A DNA stretch of 64,000 nt, taken from the NCBI GenBank assembly GCA_030407315.1, contig JALQPE010002041.1:1-64000 (forward strand), read 5' to 3'. Source of the stretch: Asparagopsis taxiformis (taxonomy: Eukaryota > Rhodophyta > Florideophyceae > Bonnemaisoniales > Bonnemaisoniaceae). The notes beneath the pieces were generated by a model. The model was not told the origin of the DNA, did not search any database, and was given only the letters and a program-made list of their open reading frames with translations. The position numbers and the translations under genes are program-made. Positions 17,017-26,790 of the stretch are shown here, in pieces (positions within the stretch are counted from its first letter, which is position 1; each line of letters starts with the position of its first letter).

Positions 17017-17921
17017 GGAAAAACACTGCGCCTGCGCAGGAGCTTGGCAATTAAGAAGGGGAGAATGTGGGACACTGCGCTTCTGCAGGGGGCGAGCATG
17101 CAAATTAATTGCATCAAAAACAGCTAAGGAGCTGGGGAGGATCGCTGAGCGGTCGCGAGTGCGTACGGATGTGGCTGAAGGATCGGGAACAAAGGTAACG
17201 GGCGCAGCGAGCGATGGATCCGAAGGGTTGGCGCCAATCTTAACTCGAATTCACGGACACGTGTAGTAGCGCGGGGTTACAGCAGGGACGCGAGCCTTTC
17301 CACACGTGTACGCCGGCGTGCGTACACGTCACTCTACACTAGTAGCGACACTATTAGCTATAGTGTCAATATTAGTTTACTGTAGTAGAAGTACACGAAA
17401 AGTGTCAGTGTAGTGGGGAATTTGTAGGGACCACAAGGTCCACCCCACTGGTTAACCAGGACCATCGGTCCTGGCCAACCGAGATCCGACTTTAACGTAT
17501 TTTGTACGGTGACTCACCGTAACGGATACAATAAAGTCAGTACTATTGTGGAATACATCCTATTCGCCTGTAAAGTGCCTTACAACCGCTCTTCAGCGCG
17601 CAACCTCTCTCGCAAGAGTAGATCTACGATTCCTAATCGTGTTCCGTCGCGCGTGAACCGCACAAAACACTGCGACATGCCGTGACGCCAAGTCACGGCT
17701 ATGCAGGAGACTCCTACCGCGAGGTAGTAAGACCAGATCCGGTGCTGGCAGTCGCGCACCCCATCCGGTCCGACTCGCACAAGGAGATACTCCGTTCGGA
17801 GGATTCGCGAGCCCAGCTAACCTTAAAGTAGGTTGGGGACGGCAGACCGAAATACTCCTAGTCGGAGGAATCTCGTGGAAGACCCGCTCTACCACTCTAC
17901 TGACTTCTTAGTCGAAGGCCG
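17017..17921. other. Spacer with clustered inverted repeats
   Basis: No supported gene. Three short inverted repeats occur within 180 bp: 17,304-17,329 (10-bp arms ACGTGTACGC), 17,347-17,367 (8-bp arms GACACTAT) and 17,456-17,474 (8-bp arms CCAGGACC). Small minus-strand open frames at 17,580-17,895 have no domain. The region could be an LTR or leader remnant of the adjacent copia fragment. Confidence 0.4.
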
Positions 17922-18818
17922 TTGCAGGACTCAATCCTCGAGTATTACTCATTTTCCTCCTTTCGGAATCCGGCTGATCACCGCCGATTGGATATCATTT
18001 CTACAGCGTACTCGCTGGATCGGGGCTTTCCTCTTTGTCGCTTGCGCTACTTCGTTTCGGGAGAATTCTATCGCTTCGCAGCGAGAAATAAGTCCTACAA
18101 ACACCAACACATTAAAAAGCTGGATACGAGGCGTTATGATTACAAAATCCTCATTGGTTCTCTTCGCTATCTATGCGATTCTACCAGACCTGATATTGCC
18201 TTCATCGTAGGACTCTTAGGTCACTTCTCCTACCAGCCCACTATGCATCATTGGAAAGCTGCAATTCGTGTGCTACGATATCTCAAATCCATGGCGACTA
18301 CTGGGATAAAATACCCCAGAGGCCTCAACTCAGGGTTAGTTGCCTATTCTGATTCTGATTTTGCTGCTTCTACTACCACACGCCGCTTCACTTCAGTATC
18401 TATCATTTTTTACAACGGCTCACCCGTCTCATGGAAATCACGCCGGCAACTACATGTCGTCACATCCACCCATGCGACTGAATTTGTGGCTAGGTTCCAA
18501 ACAACGGTACTACTTCAATCCATATCCAATTTCCTATCCGAACTCGGTGAAACCAACATTGTACCGATTCCGCTCCATATTGATAATGCCGCTGCTATCA
18601 TAACAGCTAAATCTAAATTTCCGACTCCAGCATCACGTCATATAGACGTCAAATATCATTAGCTCCGCGAGCAAGTTCACAATAAATTTATAACTCCCAC
18701 CAAAATTGTCTCATCAGATAACCCAGCGGATGTCCTTACCAAGGCTCTAAATCCCAGCCATTTCACGGACAATATCCATCTCCTTCGCCTAGATCCGCCT
18801 CCAGCGCGCGGCGACTGA
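17922..18818 (+). mobile_element. Ty1/copia fragment: end of RT, RNase H, with one nonsense codon
   Basis: Open frame from 17,922 to a TAG at 18,660, then open again in the same frame to TGA at 18,816-18,818. It contains the copia RT C-terminal box (LIGSLRYLCDSTRPDIAF), HHWKAAIRVLRYLKS, then RNase H motifs (VAYSDSDFAAS, VSWKSRRQLHVV, HIDNAAAI, SRHIDVKYH). The TAG falls where copia elements usually encode an aromatic residue after the YH pair; LREQV follows. The tail has the usual NPADVLTKAL motif. The 5' part (gag, integrase, RT catalytic boxes) is missing, so this is a 5'-truncated relic. Confidence 0.88.
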
Positions 18819-19734: not shown

Positions 19735-22700
19735 ATGCAGCGCCAAACCCCAATCTCCGACGTTGAGGCTCCTGCAAAGTCCATTCCTTCGTACTCCTCT
19801 TTTGGTCATGCATCCGCTGCCAAATTCCTCACGCATGCCGCCGCCACAGGCATTCTAGGATCCGGCCCTGCCGAGCAGCCGCCTTCAGACGCAACACCGC
19901 TCCGCATTGTGCTACAAACTGTGCCTTGGCGTATGCTCGTCGCCCAGCTGTTCTGGTCTTCCGCTGTTATGATGGTTGTGTATGCTTTCGCTGATCAAAG
20001 TTTCACCTCGCTTTCCGTCCCATTTTGGACTTCCAGCTTTCTCATCTCTTCATCCGTCGTATATGGCGTCGGCTGGGCCTTGTTTGTCTTGTTAGGCTTC
20101 TTCATTCGGGAGGCCTCCAGTCGTCATCGCACTGCCCGTACAGCTTGGAATCAGTCAATGGCCTATGCTAGGATAACCATCCGCCAAATGGTTCAGGTGT
20201 TCGCAAAGGGGCTTTGGCATCCAAATGATCAGGATAGAATAATAGCTCACTTTTTGGCATATCCCATAGCCCTGAAGATGATGATTCGCGGTGAGAGAGA
20301 ACGCCAGCAACTGGATACCATACTGCATCCCCTTGATGTTGATGATGTTATTCAATCCCAGGATATGCATATTCATTGCATACGTGTCATCAGAGGTTAC
20401 TTTTCGTGCTCGGAAACCGACGTAACCGTAGGATTCCAACCCGCCAGTCCCTCGACTGCAGGTATTTGTGCCCAGTTTAGTCAAATAGTTACTATTGACG
20501 TTATTGATAACATAACCGCTACTATTACTCGCATCGCAGAATTCAAACCTGCACTGGGTTATGTCAATCACCTCCGTATTTTCCTTTACATCTGGCTCTT
20601 TTTCTTGCCTCTTGCCCTAATCGAAACAAGCGGATGGTATGACATTCATCTTTGTGAAAAGCCCTTTTCATACACAGCAACTAACACTTCAATGCGTTCA
20701 ATGCAATCTCTTGTTCTGCAGGTTCACCCCGCTCTGGGCCGTCCTGATTACGTATGGAATTGGGATGCTATTCATAGTTGCTACAGCTCTCAATGAGCCC
20801 TTTGGTTTCGATGTACAGGACATCAGGCTAAACAGACTTGCAAGTGCAGACGCTTTGCGGTTCTTGAACATGTATCATGAAGAACGAACGTTACCTGACA
20901 TTATCAAAATTGACCACAACACGCCTCACTGGCTGGAAGAAGAACGGTTATATGACAAGAATCCTGTAATAGAATCGGCCATCGTGAGATTTTTCAAAAG
21001 CATTCCGTTCCTCACCTTTAAGAGAAAAGTTGTGCTGCCTTTACTTGTCTTTATTGCTTGGCAGTCTTTCATCGTATTTCTGACACGCGGCATAGCAGAG
21101 GATAGTCCCGAGCTAGGATGTCGCTGGTGGTGCCTTTATATTCCTCTCAGCGTTTCAACAACTTCATACGTAGGCCTCGGGGTTTTTCTATTAATGGGGT
21201 TCTGGATTAATGATGCATATGCTCGATACTCAACTGGCTTGCAATTATGGGAATCGACTTTGAAACCTGCTATGACCACACTATCTATTCAGATGGGAAT
21301 GATGTGCAAGAACGGGACCTGGCACAATAGAGATATTGAGCGTCTCTTCTCGCATATTGTGGCTATTGCGTATGCAGGTAAACAAAGGCTTCGAGAAAGC
21401 CGTGATCTATCTGATTTTAAGGCAATTCTGGCTCCAGAGGATATCAAAGCCATGTCGGAATCGAAGGACCTTGTTGATTACTGCCTTCGTGTTCTTTACG
21501 GATATATTTCTAGTATTGACAGACGAGACAGGGACACTGTCTTATCAGGAAAGCGCCCTATCAGTAATTCTCTTGTCATCATGTTCTTCCGTTGTCACCA
21601 TATTGAGAATGCAATCAATGCCTGCAGCACAATGCGAGTAGTTCCGATCTCGCCATCATTTACTCTCCATCTACATTTGTTCTCGATATTCTGGCTTATA
21701 TTGTTACCATTGGCATTCGTTCAACAAAACGGTTTTTTTTCGTACCTATATCTACCCCCGATTGCCTACTCTATTGTGAAGCTGCTTGTAATGGGTAACG
21801 AATTGTCTGATCCATTTGGAACTGACCCGAATGATATTCCTCTGGACAAGTTTTGTGCAGAGATCAAGGATTTCATTCATGACATCTACAAAGATACACG
21901 TAACGGGCCTGTTTCTTTCGTTCATGAATCCAGTGGTTACGAGGAAAGGTTTAATACTCCTCTCTCTAAAAACCTGCAATCGAAAGAAACCAATACATCA
22001 CACATGACGTTGAAACAAGCAGCTCAGATGCTCTTCTCGCAGTTACCATCGGTGCCGTGGATTGGGCAGATACTAGTCATGGCATGGATAGTTTCTGCTG
22101 TGTTTATCTCATATGGTCTTTCATTCACATGGGATGACGAGCGCAGGAACACAGGATGTCGGGAGTGGTGCAGCCCAATAGATGTCGACAAGAACATACT
22201 GTTAGAGACAGGATTTGCGCTATTTCTGATTCTGTCTTTCCGAGCTTCAGATGCCATGCGAAGGTACCACAATGCAGGGTCACTAATCTCAAAACTTGAA
22301 ATGGAACTAAGGGCAAGTATGATGGAAGTAACAGATGGATTTCAGGCCGGCTTATGGCACAAAAGTGACAAGCCCAGGTTTATTTCACACTTGATGCAAA
22401 TTCCCCTCCTGTTGAGAGATGAGTTTCTGGGGACCAATAAATGCGATGATGAGCGACTCCTTTCGGATGAAGACTATAGAAACTGTCTCAGCAGTTCAGA
22501 TCCGGTGAGGCATTGTATTGAGACTTGGGAAGCATATCTCTTATCGGTTGATGTTCCGACTGAAGAGTCAGGCTTGGACATAATGAAGAAAAAGCATTTC
22601 GCAGGGGGTGTGGTAATGTTTAGATTATTTGGTCAGAGTTACAAGGTTGGAAACATTGTGAGTCAATTAAGAGTCATCAAAAGGTTTCCCGTTGTAAGAA

Positions 22701-25482
22701 GCTACACTAATCATCAGAGGCTTTTCACTATTCTTTGGTTGGTTCTTCTGCCACTTGGAATGACTGCTCGCACTGGATTCCTCACTATACTATGGGCATC
22801 TCTGATTTCGTATGGAATTCTTGCACTGGAGTCCCTCGCAACAACATTGGTAGATCCACTTGGTGATGACGAACTTGATCTACCTATTAACAAAATGTTC
22901 ACCGAGACAGCTGAAAGATTAATCGAGGCAGTGAGGTCTACAAAATGTGATTTCAGGCATCATATTGTAGAATCGCCAGTTGCCAGTGATGCCCGAATTG
23001 GAACTTACTTGGATGGGATGAGCGTCAAAGACCAATACTGTTTACCAAAGTTTACGGAAGACGAAGTTGACGCAGGTAACTTTGCAGTTAAACCTGTCCA
23101 GAACTTCTGTGGACCGAAGAAGGAGATGATCAAACCGACGCTATTCGCTCACATGATACGTAGTGTTCCTTGGTGGGTTCTCCTAGCTGTGGCTACATGG
23201 ACTGCCCTAAGCGTGCTTATTTCGTACTTATTGAGAACTGAAACAGAAGATGTTAGATGGTGGGAGTCAAGAATATCTATTGATGGTGTTGTTGTGACAT
23301 ACGTTGGGTTTCCAGGTAAGAAATACTCATACTTACTGGTAATAACTTTGGTCAGGATTAGTGGATGTTCAAATTTTAGTTCCCTAACTACAGTTTTTTT
23401 CCTCTGAGGGATACGTTTCACTTATCGAATTCTTACTGCAGCCTTTTTGCTTCTTGGGTTCTATGTGCAGGCAGCATTCGATAGATATTCTGAAGCAGGA
23501 AATGTATGGGGAGATGATTTACGAGCTTCATGCCACTCACTGGCTGTACAGTGGTTCCTGCTAGATAGATCAGGCATTTGGCATGATGGAGACTCCGATC
23601 GGGTAATTGCTCACCTCGCGGCCGTACCCATAGCTTTGAAGATGGAACTACGAGATGAACGAGATTTGAGAGAGCTCAAAGGTTTGCTGTCTGAAGATGA
23701 TATCGGCAAAATTATGGCAGCTGAAAGCATGTCAGAATATTGTGTTGATGTGATCAGAGCTTACTACCTCTCTGGAATATGTCATCCCGAGCAATTTGCT
23801 AGTCTCGCAGATAGGGTTTCTGGCACTAGATCACCACATCTCAAGTTCGAGATTGAAAACCTTCAGGAAGCGCTACGACAGTGCAAGTTTCTGAAATCAT
23901 TTCCCATTGCGCATGGCTTTATGATATTACTTCGAGCATTGATAGGCATATGGTTCATCCTCGTTCCATTTGTACTATCTGAATCAAACGGTATGTTTTC
24001 TGAGATTCATTCGATTGAACATGTGCGGAGGCTTCTGGATGGGAAATTTAACATTGTCGATATGTCATTATTGAATATTCTCTTGAATACAGGATGGTTT
24101 GCGATTCTATGGGTTCCCATAATCGGATATGGGCTTCTTGGGTAAGCTAATGATTTACCGAAAAGGTGTGGAACACGAGCAAACTTCCGTGACGGGAATG
24201 CTGACTTCATCAACTTTTATCCCATGTATATTCAACTTACTAAAGAATGTACACCATTGCAGATGAAATTCAGCAGCCATTTGGAAGAGATTTGAATGAC
24301 TTTGACCTAGACAAGATGGCGGATACAATTGTTTCTGGAATACTATTTGTCAGGCAGAATTATCGCGGTGGATGTGAAATTCTAGTTGTTGAGACTGTAG
24401 AGAATTCTGGAAAGGCTTGGGAGAATTTCGAAGAAGATTCTGTTTCTGAAACGATATACGCAGCGTTATCTGATGACGGAAGCAAGAAAATTGGATCCAC
24501 TTCTCTGTTGTCATCTGTGTCAATGATACTACATGCTGTGCCATTATGGATGCTGGTAGCTACTGCCGTATACTCGGCACTTTCCGTGCTTCTGGCTTGG
24601 GCTATTAGTCAGAAATGGCCGTTGAATGAGTCGTGTAGTCCAGCCTTCTGCGTTCCGATTGCGATTGATGGGGTAGTGAAGGAATATGTTGGGTTTGCAC
24701 TGTTCCTTCTGCTAGGCTTTCGGTTGTACGACAGTCACTGGAGGTATGTCACTGCTTTGGCTGCATGGAGAGATGAAATTCTAAGTGATACGATACTCAT
24801 GAGCAACCGAATTTTTGAATTGTTTCCGGCTGGTGCGATTCATAAGGGAGACTTTGAGAGAATTGCAGCTCATTTCGCGGCATTTTCTATAGTGACTGCT
24901 GCTCGACTTCGAAAGCAAAAGTCTTGTGCCAAGGAGCTAAATGACGTAATGAATGCTGAAGATATTGCTCGTATCGAACGAGTGACAGAGCGAGGTGATT
25001 ACTGCATTGATGTGATTCGGGGATATCTCTCGGCAGCCGATAAGATAACAGACAAACCTGTAAGCCCATTGGTACTATGGATATTGTTTTTCCAGCTTGG
25101 CAAATTCAAGAATTATGCAGCAGAATGTGAACGAATGATAAGTATTCCGTTACCGTTTGGATATGTTCAACATATTCGAATATTCCTTGTGATTTGGCTT
25201 TTGACGTTGCCACTAGGTCTTGTGGAAACTTCAGGTTGGTGGACAATTCTGTGGGTAGTTATTATTGCGTACGGGGTGATTGGCATTGAGAGATGGTCTG
25301 CGGAACTGGCGGACCCATTCGGAACTGATCTATCAGATCTACCGCTGGGAAAATTCCGGGTCGACGCAGTCCAGAAATTGCGAATCAACCTGCGATGGTT
25401 CTACAATGGGAATGGAAGCGTGGTGAAGCCCGAACGGAAAGCGTTTCCGAGTGAAGATCAGGATATGAATGTGGAGCGATAG
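19735..25482 (+). CDS. Five-repeat bestrophin-like anion channel in one polypeptide
   Basis: Five exons (19,735-20,636; 20,722-23,315; 23,442-23,990; 24,093-24,141; 24,246-25,482) join in frame to 1,776 codons plus a stop. All four introns are GT-AG (85, 126, 102, 104 bp), and each junction restores a sequence conserved among the repeats, such as SGWF and VGFPAFLLLGF. Five bestrophin/UPF0187 units lie at about residues 55-340, 390-680, 740-1030, 1110-1390 and 1455-1735. Each has an initial TM segment after a VPW-like motif, a TM2 ending LLGF followed by a Ser/Ala-rich RY helix, and late TM segments. Each ends with the family motif PFG (P327, P665, P1013 as PLG, P1376, P1722). Bestrophins form homopentameric anion channels, so one chain could form one channel. 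I see no clear plastid transit peptide. The ATG at 19,735 is the first in frame. Confidence 0.88.
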
Positions 25483-25523: not shown

Positions 25524-26790
25524 TTACGAGGTATCTGTCTTATCGCGCTTCACTACGATTGCAGTAGATCCGCCACCTCCGTTACATATCGCAGCCACTC
25601 CATGCTCTGCCCCACGCTCTTTCATCGCGCTTAGTAAAGTCACAACGATGCGTGCTCCGCTGCACCCTAACGGATGTCCAAGACTTACCGCACCTCCAAA
25701 AATGTTTGTACGGTCATGGTCTAGACCCAACAGCTTGAGATTGGCCAAGGCCACCACAGAGAATGCTTCATTCACTTCGAACACATCAATATCTTGTATA
25801 CTCATCCCTGCTCTTGCGACCGCTTTTGGAATTGATACAGAGGGTGTGGTTGTGAAGTCCTCCGGCGCTTGTTCAGCATCTGCATAACTACAGATTGTGG
25901 CAATAACTTGCACGCCAAGCTCCTTGGCCTTCGATAGACCCATTAGTACCACTGCTGCTGCACCATCATTCAATCCAGAAGCATTTCCGCTCGTCACTGT
26001 ACCACTGCCATCTTTTAAAAAAGCAGGCCGCATGGTTGGGAGTTTCTCAATACTGGTGCGTTTGCATTCCTCATCCTCTGTTACAGTAATCTGCTTCCAA
26101 CCACTGTTTGCAACAACTGGGACGATTTCCGCACCAAATTTGCCCTGTTCAGTTGCTTGCAGGGATCGACGATAGCTTTCAGAAGCGTATGCGTCTTGGT
26201 CTTGACGAGAGAATGCATACTTTTGTGCACAGCGCTCGGCAAACATGCCCATATGTTTGTCTTCGTGTGGATCAAGCAATCCATCATGGATCATGCCATC
26301 AACAAATTTGCCATCGCCCATTCTATGACCAAAACGTGACTGCAGTGCGTAGTAAGGAATCATTGACATATTTTCCATCCCACCAGCTACGGCGACGGTT
26401 GCCACTCCAAGGGCAATGTCTTGTGCAGCCATGACGATGGTTTTGAGCCCTGATGAGCAAACCTTGTTCACCGTTGTACAGACGCATGAGTGCGGAAGTC
26501 CTGCAGCCAGAGCAGCTTGACGAGCTGGCGCTTGTCCGAGCGCTGCTGAACAGACATTGCCCATATAACAAGTATCAACGAGAGCGGGGTCCACATTTGC
26601 TCTGTCCAACGCGGCTGGGTACAGTTAGAAAACGATTGAAGTATAAGCAGTATAGCGTATCTTGCATCTTACCCCTGATGGCAGTTGCTGCGAGCTCAGT
26701 TGCTGGGACATTGGATAATGATCCGCCATAGGATCCGATGGGAGTTCGAGCAGCTGCAACGATGACGACCTGTTGGTGCGCGAGAGACAT
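25524..26790 (-). CDS. Acetyl-CoA C-acetyltransferase (thiolase)
   Basis: Two exons, 26,673-26,790 and 25,524-26,614, with a 58-bp intron (donor GTAAGA, acceptor CCCAG) that splits an Ala codon in AIRAAL; the product is 402 aa. It condenses two acetyl-CoA to acetoacetyl-CoA, the first step of the mevalonate route, or runs in reverse. The nucleophile is Cys92 in NKVCSSGLK, and the acid/base pair is His353 (GHPLGCSG) and Cys383 (CNGGGG). The N-terminus (VVIVAAARTPIGSYGG) starts directly at the catalytic domain with no targeting peptide, and there is no SKL tail, so a cytosolic location is likely. Its stop codon faces that of the bestrophin gene across only 41 bp. Confidence 0.95.

Follow-up and report, generated by a model that had tools for sequence, protein, structure and literature searches.

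A red-algal gene with five diverged bestrophin units in one chain, a probable single-chain pentameric channel

The window analysed here is a stretch of 64,000 nucleotides (positions 1 to 64,000, forward strand) of contig JALQPE010002041.1, from GenBank assembly GCA_030407315.1 of the red alga Asparagopsis taxiformis. On its plus strand, at 19735-25482, lies a gene for a chain of five bestrophin units. Its five exons join into 5,331 nt that read as 1,776 residues plus stop, with zero internal stops. An earlier note, made from the letters of this DNA, had proposed that four GT-AG junctions merge apparently separate open frames into one; that frame was recovered, with each junction where the note had placed it. 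Exon 1 (19735..20636) opens with the first ATG of the open frame, at 19735, and carries the N-terminal tail and most of unit 1 (domain residues 53-345). Intron 1 (20637..20721; 85 nt) lies close to the end of that unit. Exon 2 (20722..23315) supplies the end of unit 1, the whole of units 2 (residues 393-683) and 3 (735-1031), and the start of unit 4. Intron 2 (23316..23441; 126 nt) falls within unit 4, whose middle part is in exon 3 (23442..23990). Intron 3 (23991..24092; 102 nt) and intron 4 (24142..24245; 104 nt) flank a microexon of 49 nt (24093..24141), also in unit 4. Exon 5 (24246..25482) holds the end of unit 4, unit 5 (residues 1453-1740), the C-terminal tail and the stop codon TAG. 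All four introns are GT-AG.

In the joined protein, Pfam matches PF25539 (Bestrophin_2) in five stretches (E=1.4e-162, 540.5 bits), the count that the earlier note had given. The five pieces scored singly all exceed the cut-off of 27 bits (78.6-142.3 bits; E=7.3e-22 to 3e-41). The family is not the one the note had named, PF01062, to which animal BEST1/2 belong. PF01062 matched only the unit-4 piece, at E=0.024 and 14.2 bits, under its cut-off of 24.2; it gave no match in the whole genome either, but control genomes gave none, which leaves its absence there unproven. Unit boundaries were set by a profile built in this analysis, which places unit 4 at residues 1106-1394. Starts at 53, 393, 735, 1106 and 1453 give spacings of 340, 342, 371 and 347 residues, roughly the expected period of about 340-365 and slightly wider. 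Each unit was also expected to bear its own LLGF/RY and PFG boxes. This is true with exceptions: unit 3 has ILSF and DPLG, LMGF stands in unit 2, and in unit 1 the RY is replaced by RH. The five units share 27-33% identity pairwise. The protein thus departs from the classical homopentamer of one unit per chain and five identical chains, having five unlike units in one chain. Pfam found no rhodopsin family at E<=1 in the joined protein, the only other name being a chance-level match at 0.27, and a fusion of the bestrhodopsin type was ruled out. A search of NCBIfam with unit 5 returned no family.

The A. taxiformis genome (141 Mb, 3,156 contigs) contains 87 matches to PF25539. All five units in order were found in the window and in 10 of the 20 other regions examined (L031-L038, L040, L041). 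Spliced models were made for eight genes (the window gene, L031, L032, L033, L034, L035, L037 and L038) by a joint splice search permitting a small exon, with the first ATG of the open frame as start codon. The models have open frames of 1,776-1,824 residues and five domains each. Seven of the eight are distinct, at 54-77% identity, and L032 is 96% identical to L031. Thus six distinct genes besides the window gene share its order of five units and most of its introns. Frame-broken regions (L036, L039, L040, L041) and interrupted ones (L042, L043) were excluded from gene models, trees and ratios of nonsynonymous to synonymous substitution (dN/dS).

Querying protein databases with the 1,776 residues gave 33 proteins: one from Gracilariopsis chorda, four from Agarophyton chilense, one from Gracilaria domingensis and 27 others. 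The G. chorda and G. domingensis entries are deposited gene models of 1,821 and 1,859 aa. In the databases these named relatives are labelled hypothetical protein, unnamed protein or Bestrophin/UPF0187. Five-unit relatives occur in all three species, and the architecture proposed in the earlier note is present in other red algae. Five near-complete units were found in 15 of 50 proteins, namely our eight models and P0001, P0002, P0003, P0005, P0006, P0007 and P0022. Units were classified with position-specific profiles built from 11 of these 15. Unit order, read in 41 proteins, was 1-2-3-4-5 in 31, 1-2-3-4-5-5 in one, 1-2-3-4 in five and 2-3-4-5 in four; none of the 41 had a permuted order. A profile search, in which the best 7,994 candidates were scored, added nine proteins, all in order (two read 1-5 and seven read 1-4). 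The apparent sixth unit of P0002 was rejected as a unit 5 split by a gap. Among the nine partial proteins of the 41, five leave the family at the site of intron 2 or 3, and P0019 and P0023 retain the tail of unit 1. No intact version with two, three, four or six units could be demonstrated among the proteins examined, P0029 and P0031 being untraceable either way. Users of these annotations should be warned that many of these proteins stand in the databases in partial form, frequently truncated at introns.

The site of intron 1 is occupied in all eight own-genome models, the window gene included. Intron 2 is present in six of eight (L037 and L038 lack it), intron 3 in seven (L037 lacks it) and intron 4 in six. 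In every model with both introns 3 and 4 (window, L031, L032, L033, L035, L038) the microexon is exactly 49 nt. In L037, which is without introns 2-4, units 2-5 lie in one exon. The same sites mark breaks in database proteins. Near the intron-1 point, at profile position 251-265, 11 of the 33 relatives start. Family sequence is left at the intron-2 point by three of the 33 and by six of the nine additional profile-search proteins, and at the intron-3 point by two of the 33. Ten of 26 unit-5 relatives (P0034-P0059) begin at a methionine one codon past the window's intron 4 junction; the exact start is partly set by start-codon choice, a methionine being there by chance, and the weight lies in the frame not running further up. 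Relatives broken at intron sites were apparently predicted without splicing. Units 1 and 4 of the window gene are incomplete until the introns are removed. P0065 (GEZJ01002761.1), whose prefix GEZJ we take to denote a transcript record, has units 1-4 in one frame across the sites of introns 1 and 2. We take the introns as real because their sites recur in paralogues and relatives, because L037 joins units 2-5 and because P0065 spans two of the sites. Support for the splicing modelled in the window gene comes from these conserved intron positions and from L037, a paralogue that has lost introns 2-4.

Each repeat position formed its own clade in both trees. A quickly built tree of 86 rows (family units, 81 in all, from seven own models and 10 of the 33 relatives, plus five outgroup proteins) gave them support by the Shimodaira-Hasegawa-like approximate likelihood ratio test (SH-aLRT) of 96, 99, 99, 99 and 99. 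A more careful tree of 52 rows (five own models, four relatives, the same five outgroups, and the single-unit genes L044 and L046) gave bootstrap/SH-aLRT values of 99/94, 100/100, 100/100, 100/100 and 100/99. The outgroup comprised P0060-P0064, of which only P0063 is named bacterial. Because each position is its own clade, one five-unit fusion preceded the species and paralogue splits, with no later mixing of units. L044 (L044:1309-2683, contig C2259) groups with the outgroup, among bacterial-type relatives. The position-specific clades and the 27-33% identity between units agree with the earlier proposal that linkage would leave each subunit free to diverge. It is well supported that this is one gene with five diverged bestrophin units, whose number, order and splice positions are conserved.

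All five units are under purifying selection, as judged by two gene pairs (dN/dS ∼0.05-0.14). For the window gene against L035, dN/dS was 0.107, 0.096, 0.097, 0.120 and 0.135 in units 1-5 and 0.219 in linkers and tails; for L031 against L038 it was 0.047-0.083 in units and 0.144 in linkers and tails. The near copies L031 and L032 gave 0.160-0.252 and 0.174. For four of the seven gene pairs no ratio was obtained, because synonymous sites were saturated in every part or almost every part. The four linkers measure 47-53, 50-52, 72-74 and 53-58 residues in the eight own models, and 46 to 126 in relatives. A motif, H-x-[TS]-P-x-W-[LMIV]-E, occurs in the linker between units 1 and 2 of the window protein and in 31 of the 50 proteins searched.

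The pore neck was read by alignment to KpBest of Klebsiella pneumoniae (PDB 4wd7, 4wd8 and mutants), a bestrophin of the PF25539 type whose neck residues we take to be I62, I66 and F70. In window units 1-5 the outer position is W/L/F/F/F, the middle V/L/L/L/L and the inner F/F/F/F/F, all hydrophobic. Counts across the set used pieces of >=200 residues, 174 rows in all; near copies are included, so the rows are not independent. The outer residue was W in 18/21 rows of unit 1, L in 35/39 of unit 2, and F in 38/41, 29/38 and 34/35 of units 3-5. The inner residue was F in 20/21, 36/39, 39/41, 36/38 and 29/35 rows of units 1-5. These residues are read directly from the sequence, and their part in gating is assigned by analogy with the known neck. 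The aperture position (KpBest 180) is unconserved within every unit position, and no inference was drawn from it. At the gating tryptophan (BEST1 W287, KpBest W252) the window units have L, L, L, M and I. KpBest shows F at this site in the alignment, since the chain used is the W252F mutant. Among up to five commonest residues listed per unit position at this site W is absent, and the residues are mostly aliphatic in all rows. Passages of the BEST1 literature describe a neck of three hydrophobic residues per subunit that acts as a gate (PMC6342527), name I76, F80 and F84 as the neck, together with W287 (PMC6081419, PMC6342527), and report that W287F opens the channel (PMC6342527). Gating here probably differs from that of BEST1, because none of the five units keeps the tryptophan, each having an aliphatic residue instead.

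The reading that we favour, at a probability of roughly 0.8, is that a single chain by itself makes up one heteromeric bestrophin ring, as a pseudo-pentamer. Judged by sequence, the spliced gene encodes a membrane protein of 1,776 residues in which five bestrophin units follow in tandem. In this family each subunit crosses the membrane with four helices and keeps both its ends on the cytosolic side. Linkers of 47-74 residues could therefore connect successive units within the cytosol, and the chain would wrap once round the pore. By the trees, a single five-unit fusion founded the family, after which each position diverged separately. The ring would be an obligate heteromer with an uneven gate, its outer neck formed by Trp of unit 1, Leu of unit 2 and Phe of units 3-5 and its inner neck by Phe throughout. 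From its family, the protein is likely an anion channel, for Cl- or HCO3-. A single-chain pseudo-pentamer with unlike subunits accounts for there being five units in an unchanging order, each under constraint, and for a neck whose residues depend on position. AlphaFold models of two and of three units have predicted template modelling (pTM) scores of 0.85 and 0.81. A bestrophin fold is indicated by sequence for all five units, and by structure prediction for window units 2-3 and the first unit of P0030; a second fold comparison is effectively a test of model residues 1-311 only. The fuller account, of a natural single-chain pentamer that was fused once long ago in red algae, kept its order, is encoded by at least seven genes in this genome and forms an obligate heteromeric ring with a position-specific gate, we consider likely, if somewhat less assured than the ring itself.

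Other readings of the same data must be weighed. The chain could be a polyprotein, cut in the linkers to free units that form ordinary pentamers, the fusion then only fixing equal amounts. Linkers of 47-74 residues do exist, and two gene pairs show dN/dS roughly twice as high in linkers and tails as in units (0.219 vs 0.096-0.135; 0.144 vs 0.047-0.083). However, linker lengths are nearly constant in the eight own models, if wider among relatives (46 to 126), the linker motif is kept in 31/50 proteins, and L031/L032 linkers changed less than units. The pTM values of 0.85 and 0.81 also suggest a defined placement of the units, and we hold cleavage to be quite unlikely. It is unlikely too that the chains do not close on themselves, with several five-unit chains interlinking or some units being structural in a larger assembly. 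That five units equal the known ring size speaks against this, as do the inner Phe, which most rows retain in each of the five units, and the similar purifying selection across all five units. In its favour, self-closure of the chain is something we infer, the neck residues differ among units, and unit 3 deviates in its LLGF and PFG boxes. The idea of five separate neighbouring genes, or of a reading artefact with illusory introns, would leave units 1 and 4 incomplete. It also conflicts with intron positions that recur in paralogues and relatives, with L037, which joins units 2-5 without an intron, and with the deposited models of 1,821 (G. chorda) and 1,859 residues (G. domingensis), and we judge it highly improbable.

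Several observations count against a single-chain ring. Our case is built from sequence and predicted models. The models span at most three units, and their high pTM is an indirect pointer. P0065 loses frame in the microexon region (residues ∼1410-1439) and stops before unit 5; mis-splicing, sequence error and a real isoform are candidate causes. No explanation was found for the start of P0029, where unit 1 has left no trace, or for that of P0031, which lies within unit 2. The single-unit L046 (L046:839-2510, contig C2147) lies inside the five-unit family in the rooted 52-row tree, grouped with units 1, 3, 4 and 5 to the exclusion of unit 2 (support 85/90; part of the L046 sequence is unread). 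It may be a shrunken descendant of a five-unit gene or a sign of a more complex history. The middle neck residue of unit 4 varies, being T in 14, A in 6 and S in 3 of 38 rows. Finally, the earlier note took the number five to be unlikely as an accident, and this stands in part. The founding number equals the ring size. However, the units are only 27-33% identical, which makes it hard for the repeat number to drift by unequal crossing-over, and the count of five, once established, could last through inertia. The weight therefore lies in the founding number and in the absence of any demonstrable intact shorter multi-unit version.

Known bestrophins differ in the number of units per chain. KpBest has one unit per chain and five chains per PDB entry, whereas the window protein has five unlike units in one chain; the W252 position of KpBest is aliphatic in all five. 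Bestrhodopsin (rhodopsin-rhodopsin-bestrophin, PDB 7pl9) is likewise a large chain from an alga that includes a bestrophin domain, and is the best PDB sequence match of unit 5 (E=1.1e-17). It has a single bestrophin stretch in a rhodopsin-bearing chain, with five chains per entry, whereas the window protein has no rhodopsin domain. The thylakoid bestrophins of plants and green algae (VCCN1; Chlamydomonas BST4) have one bestrophin domain per chain, against five here. A parallel in principle is offered by the four-repeat voltage-gated sodium and calcium channels, in which a ring of like subunits became one chain with unlike repeats; these differ in their fourfold symmetry and belong to an unrelated family. 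We found no description of a five-unit or single-chain bestrophin in the open-licence literature (titles and abstract openings, among the matches listed), in agreement with the earlier note, which knew of none with five repeats. Work on bestrophins deals with rings built from five separate chains, for the most part identical. If our reading is true, this protein would stand to pentameric channels as the four-repeat sodium channel does to potassium channels, and would show a route from a symmetric to an asymmetric channel. As a natural concatemer, it would allow each of the five ring positions to be changed alone, making it testable how many subunits move to open the gate and whether subunits act together. 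Multiplication of the family in this genome points to an anion or bicarbonate transport task, one that we found named nowhere.

Less complete copies were also seen in the genome. Frame changes lie inside units in L036, L040 and L041. L039 carries units 2-5 until its contig ends, with frame changes in unit 3, and L047 units 1-2 until its contig ends, also with frame changes. L045, L049 and L050 are fragments, and L044 and L046 are single-unit genes. On re-examination L048, a weak PF25539 match in the genome search, gave nothing above reporting thresholds. L042 and L043 (contig C2798) make up a five-unit copy broken by two long insertions, in unit 2 and in unit 3. Near-identical match patterns, some with frame changes, were noted for L038/L039/L040, L035/L036 and L033/L041, which suggests uncollapsed haplotypes, recent duplicates or assembly errors. 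The L050 fragment (L050:850-2080; 1,231 bases, units 3-4) occurs at 100% identity on six contigs and 97% on a seventh (C967, C1718, C1719, C1727, C1728, C2296, C2727), and looks to have been spread by a repeat or by large duplications.

Two neighbours of the gene were noted in the window. An open frame at 17904-18662 has no Pfam match at E<=0.01; its pattern looks like that of the end of a copia-type retrotransposon. A thiolase gene (PF00108, PF02803) lies on the minus strand at 25524-26624, tail to tail with the bestrophin gene and ∼40 bases from its stop.

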